A stretch of 43,059 bases of DNA from Nitrospina sp. Lineage in GTDB: Bacteria > Nitrospinota > Nitrospinia > Nitrospinales > Nitrospinaceae. Each line of letters begins with the position of its first letter. The first letter of the stretch is position 1. A model generated the notes under the pieces. The model had not been told where the DNA came from. It was given only the letters and a program-made list of their open reading frames with translations, and searched no databases. The position numbers and the translations under genes are program-made. Where the stretch lies: positions 1 to 43,059 of the forward strand of contig JAGQJZ010000015.1 in NCBI GenBank assembly GCA_020430445.1. The letters run 5' to 3'. Below, in pieces: positions 21,368 to 27,582 of this stretch.

Positions 21368-22900
21368 ATGGACCCTACAGAAAACATACAGCTCGTCAAA
21401 GAGCAATTGAAGGCCAAGACCAGCGAGCTCAAGAAGCAGGAAAAAGAGAAAAACCTGCTGAATGAGAAAATCCAGGCGATTCTGACCCTGAACCGGAAAA
21501 AAATCCAGGAACTGACCCACGAGATTGAAGAAAAAGAAAACCAGCTTCGCGAAGCCCAGTCCCAGGCCTGGGCGGCCCGCATCGCCCGCCATTCCGGAAT
21601 AAAGGACAGCACCCGGGAAACACCGGAGGCGAACAGCGAAGAAGCTCCCGCCCCTCCGGAACTCCAGGAAAAAATCGAAAAGCTTAAGGAACGCGAAAAA
21701 CATTTAAAGGAACGGGTCCAGGAAGAAAGAAAACTCAACGACAAGAATCAAAAAGACAAATCCCTCCTCCTGAAAGAACTCAAAAGGCTGCGCAAGGAAC
21801 AGGAGAATATCGACAACTTGGTCAAGCAGATCGAGGAAATGAAGGCGCAGCTTTCCCAGCGCTCCGCCATGCCTTCCCGCGACATTGAAAAACTCCTGCG
21901 GGAAAAAGACGACCTGATCGAAAACTACGAAAAGATGCTCTACGGCAGCGTGGAACCCGGCGAAGAGGGCATGCTTCCCTCTGAAATCATCATGGACCTG
22001 AAAATGGAACTCCATGAAATGATGGAGGAGCGGAAAAAGCTGATGGCCGACCTGGATAAACTCCAGGACTACGTCGCCCAACTGGAAATGAAGGTCTCCT
22101 TGAATGAGGAAAAGGACGCTTCCGAAAAACGGGAGAGCCGGATGAACGTTGAAAGCCGCGCCCAGGCCACGGCCGAATTCTCATCCGGACTGGAAGGGTT
22201 CCTCATCACCTATTCGGATATGATCACCCTGCTCCTCGCGGTGTTCATCCTCATGGTCTCCGTCTCCCGCATCGATGCGCAAAAACTGTTCGACGTCACC
22301 TCTTCCTGGCAGGACCGGAAAATCCGCGTGGACAAGAAGAATTATTACCTGACCCAGAAAGAATGGGAGATGCTGAACTGGATCAAAAAGGAATCGGAAA
22401 AACACCAGGCCCGGTACGAAACCTTCGTGCCGGGAAACCGGGCCACTTTACACATCGCTCTCAAATCAGACGAGTTGTTCGCTCCCGGATCGGCCAACCT
22501 GAAATCCGGAGCGGAAGAAGTCCTGCTCGAAGCCATCGGCGACCAGTATCTGGAAGGACTCAAGGAAGTCCGGGTCCAGGGACACACGGACGATGTTCCG
22601 CTGCGCGCCGGTGGCGCCTTCGCTTCCAACTGGGAGCTCTCCGCCGCGCGTGCCGCCCGGGTGGCCCGGGTGATGATCGACCAGCTCAAGATTCCGCCGG
22701 AAAAATTCGCCGTGACGGGATTTGGCGAATTCCGTCCCAAACTTGAAAATTCCAAAGGAGATGAGGCACGGGCACAGAACCGCCGGGTGGAGGTGGTGCT
22801 GGTCAAGGACAAGGACGTGGTCCGGGAAGAGCAGGAAAAAACAGGCGTGAAAGTCGACGCGGACCGGATCCGGCAGGCCAGCGGGGCGTTCGGAAAGTGA
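21368..22900 (+). CDS. MotB-like stator protein with long cytoplasmic coiled coil
   Basis: The 510-residue protein ends in a clear MotB/OmpA peptidoglycan-binding domain (about 355-482: RVQGHTDDVPLRAGGAFASN, WELSAARAARVARVMIDQL, GFGEFRPKLENS, AQNRRVEVVLVKD). Its only membrane helix is at 281-300, TYSDMITLLLAVFILMVSVS, and Asp284 is placed like the ion-carrying aspartate of MotB. What is unusual is the N-terminus: MotB normally has a short cytoplasmic tail, but here about 270 residues rich in Glu, Lys and Leu form predicted coiled coils in three blocks (10-70, 95-165, 170-250). A MotA-like gene lies 2.3 kb downstream, separated by an adenylate cyclase gene. Confidence 0.88.
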   Translation: MDPTENIQLVKEQLKAKTSELKKQEKEKNLLNEKIQAILTLNRKKIQELTHEIEEKENQLREAQSQAWAARIARHSGIKDSTRETPEANSEEAPAPPELQEKIEKLKEREKHLKERVQEERKLNDKNQKDKSLLLKELKRLRKEQENIDNLVKQIEEMKAQLSQRSAMPSRDIEKLLREKDDLIENYEKMLYGSVEPGEEGMLPSEIIMDLKMELHEMMEERKKLMADLDKLQDYVAQLEMKVSLNEEKDASEKRESRMNVESRAQATAEFSSGLEGFLITYSDMITLLLAVFILMVSVSRIDAQKLFDVTSSWQDRKIRVDKKNYYLTQKEWEMLNWIKKESEKHQARYETFVPGNRATLHIALKSDELFAPGSANLKSGAEEVLLEAIGDQYLEGLKEVRVQGHTDDVPLRAGGAFASNWELSAARAARVARVMIDQLKIPPEKFAVTGFGEFRPKLENSKGDEARAQNRRVEVVLVKDKDVVREEQEKTGVKVDADRIRQASGAFGK

Positions 22901-23010
22901 CCCGCCCTCTTCCACGGCCTGTTCCCCATCCGGCAATTTGACAGTGGCTTTTTACCGGTGCGCCTTATATCCTATATCAAGGACGTCTCCAATAAATTGA
23001 CATTGGCCGC

Positions 23011-23043
23011 GAACAGGTCCTGTTTTTCAGGGCCTGCGAGTCG
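23011..23043 (+). promoter_or_regulatory. Conserved intergenic motif, copy 2
   Basis: GAACAGGTCCTGTTTTTCAG followed by GGCCTGCGAGTCG matches the element at 13493-13530. In this copy CAGGTCCTG and CAGGGCCTG can pair (one G-U) around a TTTTT loop. It lies 77 bases before the adenylate cyclase start in a 220-base gap that holds no gene. The function is unknown. Confidence 0.4.
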
Positions 23044-23120
23044 CTGAAATGAAAACGTCGAACGATTGAGGCCTCCTCAGGAATATCCAATTCCATCCCT
23101 CAACAACCCGAAGGGGACGC

Positions 23121-25205
23121 ATGACGGAAGGGCAAACCAGCCTTACCAACGAGTTGTTCAACAACCGCCAGTTGTTCATCCGCTACAACCGGTTCAAACT
23201 GGACCGGATCAATGAAATTCTGGCCTTCAACGACCGGCGGGTTTTCACCCTCATCCCGCGTCTTTTACACTCCAACCAGGCAGGCCTGCCCGGATACGTC
23301 GAAGGCGATGTTCCCCAGGGCATCTACAATTACCTGTTGAACCCGGAAATTCTCTACACCGCGGAGCATCTGTTTCCCGACGTCATCATCCGCCGGAACA
23401 ACTACGACAAGCCGTTCATCGAAACAGTCCTGCTGATGGGAAGCGTCGGCTCCATCGCCCACACCCAGAAATCAGACCTCGACTACACCCTGCTGGTCAG
23501 AAAAAGCAGCGTGACCGAGCAGCAACTCGAACTGTTCAATCGCAAACTGAAACTGATCGAAAACTGGGTCTGGGAAAACCACAAGCTGGAAATCCACTTT
23601 TTCGTCAACGATATTGACGAGGTCAAACAGAATATCTTCGGGGAAAGCGACAGCGAAAGCACCGGCTCCGCCCTGGCCAAACTCCTCAAGGAGGAAATGT
23701 ACCGGACCCTGGTGATCATCGCCGGCAAAATACCGTACTGGTGGATCATGCCCCTGAAAACCACGGACGAACAATACGAAAAAAACTGCGAAATGATCCG
23801 CCGCCACCAGACCCTGCTCAATCCCGACGAGTTTGTCGACATCGGCAACGTCGAGGACATTGCGGACGACGAGTTTTTCGGCGGCACCATCTGGGCTTTA
23901 ATCAAGTCCTTCAAGGCCCCTTTCAAAACCCTCATTAAAATGGGGCTCCTGGAAGACTACATGTTCAGCCAAACACGGTTCAACCTTCTCTGCCATGAAA
24001 TCAAAAAGAAAGTCTTCTCACAGGTTCCCTTCGATGAAATCGACCCCTACCTGAGCCTGTTCCTGCGCTCGGAGAGCTATTTCAAAGGCTCCAAAGGCTT
24101 CAACGAAGTGGACGCCCTGAGAACCGCTTTTTATATCAAGGTCGGGACCCAGGTCACCGGCGACGACATGGACCGCAGAACCCGGGACGGCAAGAAAAGA
24201 GTCCTGATTGAACTGGTGAGAAAATGGGACTGGCCCACAAACCGCCTGGAACAACTCAACAATTATATCCAGTGGCAGATGATGCAAAAGGTGGCGCTGG
24301 GGGACCGCATCAACAAGATCCTGATGAACTCCTACCGCATCATCTCGGAACACAACAAGAAACTGGGCAACGAAAATTCGCTCATCACGGAGCGGGACAC
24401 GCATTTGCTGGGAAGAAAACTGTTCAGCTTTTTCAACAAGTCCAACTACAAGGTAGAAAGTCTTTTCGCCTTGATCGATGGGGAAACCGGAGAGAAGGAA
24501 CTCACCTTCCTGTTCCACCAGACCAATCCCCGGGAAAAAGGGGAATGGTATTTGATCCGGGGCAGGTCGAAGGCCTTTCTCGAGCAGATTCCGAAGGAAA
24601 ATATAATCAAGAAAGCGGCTTCGCTGCAATTCCTTCTCGCCTTCACCTGTTTCAACAGCCTGTTCCGCAGAGACACCGCAATCCTCCTGCGGTCGGAGCA
24701 ACACCAGTCGATCAAGGACCTGGATCTGCGGAACATCCTGCAGGATCTTTCCACCTACCTGGCGCAGGTCGACGTGGCCAATATCCCCAACGAGCATCTG
24801 CTGGCCCCCGCCCACATCGTCCAGTTGTTCATGATCCTGGATTTTGGCAACCCCATTCCGGCGGAGGTCCTGAAAGACAACCGGAAGGAGTTTGAAACAG
24901 CGGGAAAACACGCGGAATTCCTGAACCAGCGTATCGGACGGTTGAGGGCCGTCACGGCGATTTACCTGACGTCCTGGGGCGAATTGTTCTGCAAAACCCA
25001 CGGAGGCCTCAACTGCATGCACCGGGCTCTGGCGGAGCTGGGCCCGCAAGTGACTGGAACAGAAGCGGATAAGGAAGATTTCCTTAAGGTTTTTATCCCC
25101 GGAAACCGCAGAGATGTATTGAGCCTTTCCTGGCTAAATAGTTATATTTTAAAGTCTCTCAGGGCTCGGACCCGTGACGCGGCAGCCGCGGAGGCCGCGA
25201 ATTGA
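23121..25205 (+). CDS. cyaA: Class I adenylate cyclase
   Basis: Class I cyclases make cAMP from ATP in the cytoplasm. The 694-residue protein shows the family's nucleotidyltransferase-like site: LLMGSVGSIAHTQKSDLDYT places Gly107-Ser108 and Asp119/Asp121 as in E. coli CyaA (GS...SDLD). Further family motifs are ENWVWENHKLEIHFFVND, KEEMYRTLVIIAGKIPYWW, DEFFGGTIWALIKSFKAPFK, LLEDYM and VRKWDWP. At 694 residues it is about 150 shorter than the E. coli enzyme, mostly missing from the C-terminal regulatory part. It is placed between MotB- and MotA-like genes, 220 bases after the former and 31 before the latter. That setting is unusual for cyaA. Confidence 0.9.
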   Translation: MTEGQTSLTNELFNNRQLFIRYNRFKLDRINEILAFNDRRVFTLIPRLLHSNQAGLPGYVEGDVPQGIYNYLLNPEILYTAEHLFPDVIIRRNNYDKPFIETVLLMGSVGSIAHTQKSDLDYTLLVRKSSVTEQQLELFNRKLKLIENWVWENHKLEIHFFVNDIDEVKQNIFGESDSESTGSALAKLLKEEMYRTLVIIAGKIPYWWIMPLKTTDEQYEKNCEMIRRHQTLLNPDEFVDIGNVEDIADDEFFGGTIWALIKSFKAPFKTLIKMGLLEDYMFSQTRFNLLCHEIKKKVFSQVPFDEIDPYLSLFLRSESYFKGSKGFNEVDALRTAFYIKVGTQVTGDDMDRRTRDGKKRVLIELVRKWDWPTNRLEQLNNYIQWQMMQKVALGDRINKILMNSYRIISEHNKKLGNENSLITERDTHLLGRKLFSFFNKSNYKVESLFALIDGETGEKELTFLFHQTNPREKGEWYLIRGRSKAFLEQIPKENIIKKAASLQFLLAFTCFNSLFRRDTAILLRSEQHQSIKDLDLRNILQDLSTYLAQVDVANIPNEHLLAPAHIVQLFMILDFGNPIPAEVLKDNRKEFETAGKHAEFLNQRIGRLRAVTAIYLTSWGELFCKTHGGLNCMHRALAELGPQVTGTEADKEDFLKVFIPGNRRDVLSLSWLNSYILKSLRARTRDAAAAEAAN

Positions 25206-25236
25206 TCCATTGCGCACCCCGCAGGGTTAACTTTTA

Positions 25237-26061
25237 ATGGCAACAGCAGTCAAAACACAGGAAGAACTCGCCCAACAGGGAATCGACACCGCCCCGCAGC
25301 AGAATGTTGTCGACATGGGGACCATCCTCGGCACCCTGTTCGGGGTCCTGCTCATTTTCGGCGCCATTCTCTACCAGGGCGATGTCGGCCTGTTCTGGAG
25401 CATTCCCTCCGCCCTGATCGTATTCGGCGGCACGGTGACCACGGCGTTCATCGCCTTCCCCTCGCAAAAAATCATGGGCATGATCCCGGTCCTCATCAAT
25501 GCCTTCAAACCCGACGTGCACAAACCCGCGGATTACGTCGACATCATCATGTCGCTTTCCTCAAAATACAGAACCGGGGGCATGAAGCGCCTGGAGTCCG
25601 AAGAAGAGTTTCTCAACAACCGGTTTTTACGGTCCGGAATTTCCATGATCGTCGATGGATACAACTCCAGGGAAATTCAGGAGATCATGGAGCGCGAACT
25701 GCAGGCGCTGATAGACCGCCACAACAGCGGCCAGAAAATACTCCGTTTCATGGCCGTGCAATCTCCGGTGTTCGGCATGGCCGGAACGCTGATCGGCCTG
25801 ATCCAGATGCTGTCGCAGCTTGAAGACCCCAGCCAGATCGGCTCCGGTCTCGCCACGGCCCTGATCACCACGTTTTATGGCATCATGCTGGCGAACCTGA
25901 TCCTCATTCCGCTGGTCGCCAAGCTGAACACTCGGACGGAAAACGAAACCACCCTGCTGAAAGCCATTCGCGTCGGCGTCATGGGCATTCACGACCGGGT
26001 CAATCCACAAAAAATCCGGCGCAGCATGAACGCGCTGCTCCCTCCTGACAACCAGAAATAA
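25237..26061 (+). CDS. MotA-like stator protein
   Basis: The 274-residue protein has four membrane helices (about 28-46, 52-72, 172-192, 203-226) and the long cytoplasmic loop of MotA/PomA. The loop contains KYRTGGMKRLESEEEF, matching the conserved RxxG...LE region with the charged residues that drive the flagellar rotor. The membrane prolines are present in AVQSPVFGMAGTLIGLIQML and NLILIPLVAKL. The size is normal, unlike its B partner. It precedes the pentapeptide gene with a 1-base stop/start overlap (TAATG). No flagellar gene is in the window. Confidence 0.9.
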   Translation: MATAVKTQEELAQQGIDTAPQQNVVDMGTILGTLFGVLLIFGAILYQGDVGLFWSIPSALIVFGGTVTTAFIAFPSQKIMGMIPVLINAFKPDVHKPADYVDIIMSLSSKYRTGGMKRLESEEEFLNNRFLRSGISMIVDGYNSREIQEIMERELQALIDRHNSGQKILRFMAVQSPVFGMAGTLIGLIQMLSQLEDPSQIGSGLATALITTFYGIMLANLILIPLVAKLNTRTENETTLLKAIRVGVMGIHDRVNPQKIRRSMNALLPPDNQK

Positions 26062-26912
26062 TGTCTCAAGTCGAAGAAGTCCTCAACCAGGCCCTGAAAA
26101 ACCCCACACAGGACGGGGTGAACCTCAATGGCTACGATCTGAAGGGAATCAGCCTGAACGGAACGTCGTTTATCTTCGCCGTGCTCCACGACGTGGTCTT
26201 CGACGAGGCCGAGTTGACCGACATCAACTATTCGGAAGCCAATCTGAAAAGCACCAGGTTCCGCAACGCCCGGCTCAAAAACGTGAACTTCGGCAACACG
26301 TCCCTGCGGGAATCCAATTTTGAAGACGCAACACTGGTTCAGTGCAGTTTCCGCAACACCGACCTGGAGCACGCCATTTTTTCAGGAGCCACCCTGCGCG
26401 GGTGCGATTTCCGGGGCAGCAATCTCAACCACACCAACCTGTACCACACGAAAATCTCGGATTGCGATTTCGGCTTCGCCCGGATGATGTATGTCTACGC
26501 CAAGTCGTCCGAAATCAATAAATGCGTGATGACCGGCATCAACGCACGCGGGGCGGACTTCAGTTTTTCCAGGATGGAAAATGTCGACCTGCGCGGCGCC
26601 ACGCTCAAATATTCCGACTTCAACTCCTGTTCACTGCCCGAAGCCAACCTGTCCAACGCCATCCTCATCGGCTGCGAACTCAAGGACGCCTTCTGCAAAT
26701 TCGCCACCATGATCGAAACCAATCTCGAGGGAGCCGACCTCACCTACGCCAACCTGGAGGAGTGCAATCTGGAAAAGGCCTTCCTCCTGGAGGCCAACCT
26801 GCACGGCACCAACCTGGCCAAGTCCAACCTGAAAAACGCCTACCTGGTGGACTCCAACCACAGCAAAGCCAACACCAAGGGCGCCGACATCAAGAACACC
26901 ATTTTCGACTGA
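26061..26912 (+). CDS. Pentapeptide-repeat protein
   Basis: The 283 residues are nearly all pentapeptide repeats of the A(D/N)LXX type, for example FRNARLKNVNFGNTSLRESN and ANLEECNLEKAFLLEANLHG, forming a right-handed quadrilateral beta-helix. The first 30 residues are helical. It has no signal peptide, so it is likely cytosolic. Its start overlaps the MotA-like stop, which strongly suggests it is part of the cyclase-stator operon. Pentapeptide proteins serve as scaffolds or DNA mimics; a docking role on the stator or cyclase is an inference. Confidence 0.88.
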   Translation: MSQVEEVLNQALKNPTQDGVNLNGYDLKGISLNGTSFIFAVLHDVVFDEAELTDINYSEANLKSTRFRNARLKNVNFGNTSLRESNFEDATLVQCSFRNTDLEHAIFSGATLRGCDFRGSNLNHTNLYHTKISDCDFGFARMMYVYAKSSEINKCVMTGINARGADFSFSRMENVDLRGATLKYSDFNSCSLPEANLSNAILIGCELKDAFCKFATMIETNLEGADLTYANLEECNLEKAFLLEANLHGTNLAKSNLKNAYLVDSNHSKANTKGADIKNTIFD

Positions 26913-26967: not shown

Positions 26968-27582
26968 ATGAAAGTGAACCGAATTCCCTTTGCATTTTTG
27001 CTGCTTGCCCTCTTCCTTGGCCTGACCGCGTTCAACACGCAAGACCGGATCGCCGCCTACGAATCGCCCGAACGCGCCGTCTGGCAGAAACCGGACGAGG
27101 TCGTGGCTGCATTGAAAATCCGGGAGGGAAGCCAGATCGCCGACCTCGGCTCGGGCAGCGGCTACTTCACCTTCCGCCTGGCCGATGCCACGGGCCCCTC
27201 GGGCAAAGTCTATGCGGTGGATGTGAACTCCGAGATGAACGAATACGTCAACGGGCGGGCGGAGAAGGGCGGCTACCAAAACGTCTCAACCGTGCTGGCC
27301 GCAACGGACGACCCCAGACTTCCTCAAGCGGGCATCGACCTGATCTTCTCCTGCGACAGCTACCACCATCTGGAAAACAGGACGGCCTATTTTAAAAACG
27401 TCAAACAGTATTTAAAGCCCGGCGCGCGGGTGGCGATTATTGACTTCAAGAAGGAAGCGTTCCATCACTATACCGAGAGCCATATCATCAAGCAGGAAAT
27501 GGAAGCCGCCGGCTACAAATTGGAAGAGGAAATCGACACCCTCCCCCGCCAGCATTTTTTAATATTTTCTATTGAGGGGTAA
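26968..27582 (+). CDS. Class I SAM-dependent methyltransferase with signal sequence
   Basis: The 204-residue protein has a strong N-terminal hydrophobic stretch (PFAFLLLALFLGLTAFN) after a basic start MKVNR, then a Rossmann methyltransferase core: motif I IADLGSGSGYFTFRLA, acidic motif II YAVDVNSEM, IDLIFSCDSYHHLEN and the post-motif LKPGARVAIIDFKKE. The ATG has a good AGGAG site. Export or membrane anchoring is inferred from the N-terminus and is odd for an enzyme needing SAM. Substrate unknown. It stands 55 bases after the pentapeptide gene and could belong to that transcript. Confidence 0.82.
   Translation: MKVNRIPFAFLLLALFLGLTAFNTQDRIAAYESPERAVWQKPDEVVAALKIREGSQIADLGSGSGYFTFRLADATGPSGKVYAVDVNSEMNEYVNGRAEKGGYQNVSTVLAATDDPRLPQAGIDLIFSCDSYHHLENRTAYFKNVKQYLKPGARVAIIDFKKEAFHHYTESHIIKQEMEAAGYKLEEEIDTLPRQHFLIFSIEG

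Follow-up and report, generated by a model that had tools for sequence, protein, structure and literature searches.

A four-gene operon conserved in the Nitrospinota order that includes Nitrospina may attach an accessory flagellar-type, probably Na+-driven stator to a cAMP-signalling core made of a class I adenylate cyclase (AC) and a pentapeptide-repeat protein (PPR). The coupling between the two parts is what we infer from the arrangement of the genes and from the proteins that they encode, and we hold this reading tentatively, at somewhat less than an even chance. It hints at a link between motor state and cyclic AMP in marine nitrite-oxidiser relatives (Nitrospinota). The genes lie in the window (the whole 43,059-nucleotide stretch analysed, contig C77) of a Nitrospinota metagenome-assembled genome (MAG; 3.3 Mb, 86% complete). 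Relatives are given by neutral labels for family and genus (f1g1 and so on) and for genome (G031 etc.).

Organization and conservation of the four-gene unit

All four genes lie on the forward strand. The first (21368–22900) encodes the MotB-like B subunit of a stator designated type W (MotB-W, 510 aa; Pfam OmpA 4e-14 and MotB_plug 5e-12), the second (23121–25205) encodes AC (694 aa; Adenylate_cycl 2e-66 and Adenyl_cycl_N 5e-48), the third (25237–26061) the MotA/PomA-like A subunit (MotA-W, 274 aa; MotA_ExbB 1e-28 and MotA_N 1e-6, the latter barely over cut-off) and the fourth (26061–26912) the PPR protein (283 aa; Pentapeptide 3e-48). Each of the four families is matched far beyond its Pfam cut-off. 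The longest gap of the unit, 220 bases, separates the MotB-like gene from AC (22901–23120; 24–214 bases in intact relatives), and the MotA-like stop and the PPR start share one base (TAATG). An earlier sequence-only reading of this DNA had described the same order on one strand and the one-base overlap, and the open reading frames, the Pfam matches and the TAATG junction agree with it. That reading had also noted that no flagellar gene is present, which holds for the locus but not for the genome: the unit has MFS, methyltransferase and FGE-sulfatase-domain genes, not flagellar ones, as its neighbours, and the genome encodes FliM, FliN, FlhA, FliP and FlhF together with five flagellin-family matches. 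A search for a plasmid match returned none.

The complete unit, in the order MotB-AC-MotA-PPR, is present in the window and at 29 more loci (30 genomes); each of the order's four families is represented, by 11 genera in total. The AC-MotA gaps are mostly 8–35 bases and the MotA-PPR gaps run from -8 to +23, with longer gaps of 24–220 bases between MotB and AC. Outside the order neither a stator nor a PPR orthologue adjoins AC, and among 80 AC loci none there is linked to stator genes. The sequence-only reading had staked its proposal on linkage of the four genes in relatives, and this linkage is conserved. No described system of such a make-up was known to that reading; in the open-access literature on AC with stators or AC with pentapeptide proteins we likewise found no published description of the four-gene unit.

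As a synteny control, the whole window was compared with 60-kb stretches of five genomes. Gene order from ~18.3 kb to beyond 32 kb is kept across families on both strands, the flanking genes being on the opposite strand. Since the cassette lies inside a longer conserved block that includes opposite-strand genes, order alone is weak evidence. Such a block is compatible with slow change of gene order in this neighbourhood, the stator and the cyclase having no functional link, an explanation that we regard as decidedly unlikely. The tight same-strand packing of the four genes, with overlaps or near-overlaps, speaks against it, as do the stator losses and replacement described below.

The cyclase and its pentapeptide partner

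The window AC belongs to the cAMP-making class I family. The nucleotidyltransferase-type active-site motif G107-S108...D119-x-D121 together with E157 is invariant in an alignment of 19 homologues, and cAMP synthesis is predicted for the protein. AC matches the PF01295 profile at positions 1–416 of 601; the rest, that is, the C-terminal region of the enterobacterial type, is absent. The AF2 model has a pLDDT of 86.6 and its closest folds in the PDB are those of AadA/AAD(9) adenylyltransferases, with E just above 0.001; no solved structure was found that matches the AC profile. Seven cyclases are encoded in the host genome, the window AC and six of class III. AC is present in 56/77 genomes of the phylum, and identity to the window protein is 46–80% for full-length copies in the same order and 29–33% in other orders.

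PPR orthologues (E below 1e-40), nearly all of them 283–286 aa long, were found in 49 of the order's genomes, always in the same number as AC, so that the one genome with a pair of ACs has a pair of PPRs too. None turned up in the AC-less genomes of the order, and the few ACs without a PPR match are on truncated contigs or come from other orders. Outside Nitrospinota, single AC-fusion proteins of ~1,300 aa (one cut by a contig end), with a long N-terminal region ahead of the class I AC, are encoded at ten of the AC loci; these come from Desulfobacterales, Desulfobacula, Desulfovibrio and unclassified Deltaproteobacteria. The N-terminal region contains pentapeptide repeats in all six of the fusions that were scanned with Pfam, and HEAT repeats too in one of them. 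The ten fusion ACs form a clade apart from the Nitrospinota ACs, and in a sample of the Desulfobacterota-type phylum both ACs of fused length and solo ACs occur. The MotA proteins of fusion-bearing genomes are just 30–37% identical.

Given the AC-PPR gene fusion and the strict co-occurrence, the AC-PPR partnership is the best-supported functional claim that we make: AC and PPR form an inseparable core, with PPR as a dedicated partner of AC and the stator as an add-on. That the two are strict neighbours here and fused in another group suggests that class I cyclases can have a pentapeptide partner, an idea open to immediate testing.

A flagellar-type stator with a cytoplasmic coiled coil

MotB-W is laid out as a cytoplasmic coiled coil (aa ~1–256), a single transmembrane segment with the channel Asp (~276–300) and an OmpA-like peptidoglycan-binding domain (~370–472). 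In 16 homologues D284 is invariant and the N-terminal segment is conserved. The AF2 prediction places three long helices (3–78, 97–192 and 204–256) ahead of the transmembrane segment, which bears out the cytoplasmic coiled coil of the sequence-only reading; as the whole-model pTM is only 0.32, the helices alone were used.

The nearest solved structures of MotA-W are MotA/PomA (PDB match, E ~1e-43). In PomA, the charge of R88, E96 and D114 is indispensable for motility, and T158, T185 and T186 are the Na+-site threonines (PMC10374538). Mapping to PomA numbering indicates that MotA-W has equivalents of these three rotor-contact residues and matches all three threonines; PomA K89 and R232 are not kept. 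In genus g5, which takes in a groundwater MAG, T185 is changed to alanine as in H+ stators, a substitution that in our view points to a functional channel. The type W stator scores under the NCBIfam equivalog cut-offs. With the channel Asp, the peptidoglycan-binding domain, the rotor residues and the Na+-site threonines kept, type W looks like a working flagellar-type stator, and judging by the threonines it is probably driven by Na+.

Flagellar genes and further stators in the host

Three MotA-type stator sets are encoded in the host genome: type W, a conventional pair and a second coiled-coil pair, the last two being conserved in the order as well. The conventional pair has a short MotB, adjoins a response regulator-HD protein and lies on the FliM contig in several genomes. 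A PilZ protein is encoded next downstream of the second coiled-coil pair in 21 loci, and in the window's family f1 a cNMP-PAS-GGDEF-EAL protein is encoded ahead of the pair. The MotA of this pair is without an E96 equivalent, and the N-terminus of its MotB is homologous to that of MotB-W (33% over 221 aa, E 8e-20). The host has 17 matches to cNMP-binding domains. Type W is found in genomes with flagellar genes, except for one 70% complete MAG (G058).

The sequence-only reading had taken type W for a non-flagellar stator. With a flagellum and two other stators in the host this description is unsupported, and MotA-W keeps the PomA rotor-contact residues. A non-flagellar host is ruled out by the flagellar genes. 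The same reading had proposed looking for host flagellar genes and would have yielded if these were the only stators of a normal flagellar set; a flagellar set was found, but so were other stators, and the three MotA-type sets rule out type W as the only one.

These observations also bear on whether type W could be a non-flagellar ion-driven motor or envelope-stress sensor that resembles ZorAB and signals via cAMP. PADLOC ZorB models match MotB-W (E 1e-18 to 1e-14), though through general MotB/OmpA features, and MotB-W combines a cytoplasmic rod with a wall-binding domain as ZorAB does; in ZorAB both are needed for function and it is proposed that the rod signals to effectors (PMC11890865). 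The retention of R88/E96/D114, the presence of flagellar genes wherever type W occurs save in the incomplete G058, the extension on the B rather than the A subunit and the absence of a nuclease or helicase effector nearby make a motor of this kind very unlikely. Membership of Zorya itself was considered and ruled out: the tail is on the B subunit, the ZorC/D/E effectors are absent, and the MotA-like, AC and PPR proteins are without a PADLOC match.

Loss and replacement of the stator

Mapped on the AC tree, absence of the stator calls for three changes or more. In genera g2, g3 and g15, AC-PPR is retained and MotA and MotB, which flank AC, are both gone. In G033 only decayed pieces of MotA and MotB accompany the retained AC-PPR, and in G059 MotA is lost and the end of MotB remains. 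In G031 the same locus reads MotB-MotB-MotA-AC-PPR: the stator beside AC-PPR is a divergent one, with a MotA that is 49% identical and two MotB-like proteins that have long (coiled-coil) N-termini. In G043 a second AC copy is preceded by this same divergent MotA, and a remnant of the usual one survives between that AC and PPR; such decayed traces of the old MotA between AC and PPR are seen in two relatives. The exchange of one stator for another beside AC-PPR, in one sublineage only, argues for a functional tie. Both the joint absence of MotA and MotB and the replacement at the same locus count against neighbourhood conservation as the explanation of the unit.

At AC and PPR positions that are conserved in stator-bearing genomes, the stator-less lineages have no clear excess of changes compared with others; there is thus no sign here of AC-stator contact. 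MotA and flagellins are lost in 4/5 AC-less genomes versus 1/31 with AC (Fisher p 0.0004, phylogeny not corrected for); G028 is AC-less yet keeps MotA and flagellins. Flagellin matches are lower in g3 and g15 (1–4 versus 4–9). Because G033 and G059 are without the type W MotA yet have 6 and 8 flagellin matches, flagellin number is not relied on and was dropped as a correlate of stator loss.

Several of these results would also be expected if type W were an ordinary accessory flagellar stator in a dual-stator arrangement and AC-PPR an independent pair. The two would then be co-transcribed on account of the control of motility by cAMP, and the stator would neither touch the cyclase directly nor signal to it. 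The host flagellum with its other stators, the kept rotor residues, the conservation of AC-PPR without a stator and the lack of compensating AC/PPR changes after stator loss all fit, and in one Vibrio strain a class I AC is described that controls Na+ motility through cAMP and makes no contact with the stator (PMC13079933). We judge this arrangement possible but somewhat unlikely. Three points speak against it: the ~256-aa cytoplasmic coiled coil, for which no role in ordinary stators is known and which the two messenger-linked stators share as a homologous segment; the position of AC between the MotB-like and MotA-like genes; and the swapped stator, which is once more a neighbour of AC.

A possible link from motor to cyclic AMP

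In the coupled operon that we tentatively favour, a MotB dimer fixed to the cell wall would project its coiled coil into the cytoplasm and there hold or contact the AC-PPR pair. Stator engagement, load or ion flow would change local cAMP synthesis, or else cAMP or the state of AC would gate the stator. Some of the genome's many cNMP-binding domains would read the cAMP, perhaps among them that of the cNMP-GGDEF-EAL protein next to the PilZ-linked stator, in which case cAMP would be tied to c-di-GMP and to stator choice. Such a loop would be analogous to Pseudomonas MotC-SadC, with cAMP replacing c-di-GMP. In its favour we count the ordered and tightly packed unit in 30 genomes, the AC-PPR pairing and fusions, the stator swap, the homologous coiled coils of the two messenger-linked stators, the retained PomA residues and the joint loss of AC with MotA and flagellins. 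Against it we count the longer syntenic block, the survival of AC-PPR in lineages that lost the stator, the lack of AC or PPR changes following that loss, the six other cyclases of the genome and the absence of stator linkage outside the order among 80 AC loci. A bolder version, in which the wall-anchored rotary stator senses load or ion flux and governs a class I AC via the coiled coil and a pentapeptide adaptor, as a direct motor-to-cAMP transducer beside a c-di-GMP-wired sister coiled-coil stator, we consider unlikely.

The reporting of load or surface contact from motor to second messenger is an open question, and the described stator-cyclase example uses c-di-GMP; a conserved stator-cyclase operon would supply the cAMP counterpart. 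Two homologous coiled-coil stators in marine nitrifier relatives, one associated with cAMP and the other with PilZ/c-di-GMP, would make two-messenger stator choice a testable idea.

Comparison with known systems

Type W is like PomAB/MotAB (Vibrio PomAB, PDB 8brd/8bri; MotAB, 8ucs) in its A-subunit match, channel Asp, OmpA domain and the residues R88/E96/D114 and T158/T185/T186. It differs in the ~256-aa cytoplasmic coiled coil of the B subunit, in K89 and R232, which are not kept, and in the position of its genes, which are separate from the flagellar ones and enclose a class I AC. AC shares both Pfam domains and the nucleotidyltransferase motif and fold with the CyaA family of class I enzymes, whereas its length of 694 aa, the absent C-terminal part of the profile and the dedicated pentapeptide partner set it apart. 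The Desulfobacterota-type fusions likewise pair pentapeptide repeats with a class I AC, but within one protein of ~1,300 aa whose N-terminal part is a HEAT/helical region; they have no stator, and their AC belongs to a separate clade. Zorya ZorAB is also a wall-binding ion-driven motor with a cytoplasmic rod; there the rod is on ZorA, the A subunit, and the effectors are nucleases and helicases, whereas here the rod is on the B subunit and no such effectors are present.

In the nearest described case, from Pseudomonas, interaction with the MotCD stator is reported to stimulate the diguanylate cyclase SadC, and the PilZ protein FlgZ removes the stator (PMC12288467). As with MotC-SadC, an accessory stator is tied here to a second-messenger cyclase, a link known in our case from genomes alone. 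Unlike in MotC-SadC, a class I AC would supply cAMP as the messenger, and a separate PilZ-linked stator is encoded in the same genome.

Stator and cyclase genes in relatives

Class I adenylate cyclase and pentapeptide repeats are joined in one protein of ~1,300 aa in Desulfobacterota-type genomes, at the loci L206:7982-11854, L218:7937-11857, L229:7997-11947, L222:7512-11492 and L192:202-4125, the last of which carries HEAT repeats too. In genome G031 (L080:10995-15253), the stator that adjoins the cyclase and pentapeptide-repeat genes is divergent: it combines a single MotA with two differing coiled-coil MotB-like proteins in tandem. Directly downstream of the pentapeptide-repeat gene in the window, and on the same strand, lies a SAM methyltransferase-like gene (26968-27582) that is apparently restricted to this genome, because the corresponding loci of relatives hold no match to it.

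The second coiled-coil stator operon of the host (L035:6897-12429, contig C55 of G000) encodes a cNMP-PAS-GGDEF-EAL protein, MotA, a 486-aa MotB, a PilZ protein and a 207-aa protein with no Pfam match; the gene order MotA-MotB-PilZ occurs at 21 loci within the order. The Nitrospinota genome G047, a single contig, encodes an additional MotA/MotB-like pair (L113:4942-6815), with the MotB motif SWKVAYADFVTAMMAFFLLMW, that is very distant from the other three stator types (19% identity). FliM is present in G049 (L253), G029 (L254) and G022, accompanied by export or C-ring genes at the first two loci; these genomes gave no MotA match and 0 or 1 flagellin matches. Their flagellar systems may be reduced or unpowered, or the missing genes may fall in gaps of the assemblies.

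In genus g5, which takes in the groundwater MAG NC_groundwater_1754, the cassette's MotA (MotA-W; L055, L056) has Ala at the equivalent of Vibrio PomA T185, a Na+-site threonine. This change would fit a freshwater habitat, and Ala at this position is shared with H+ stators.
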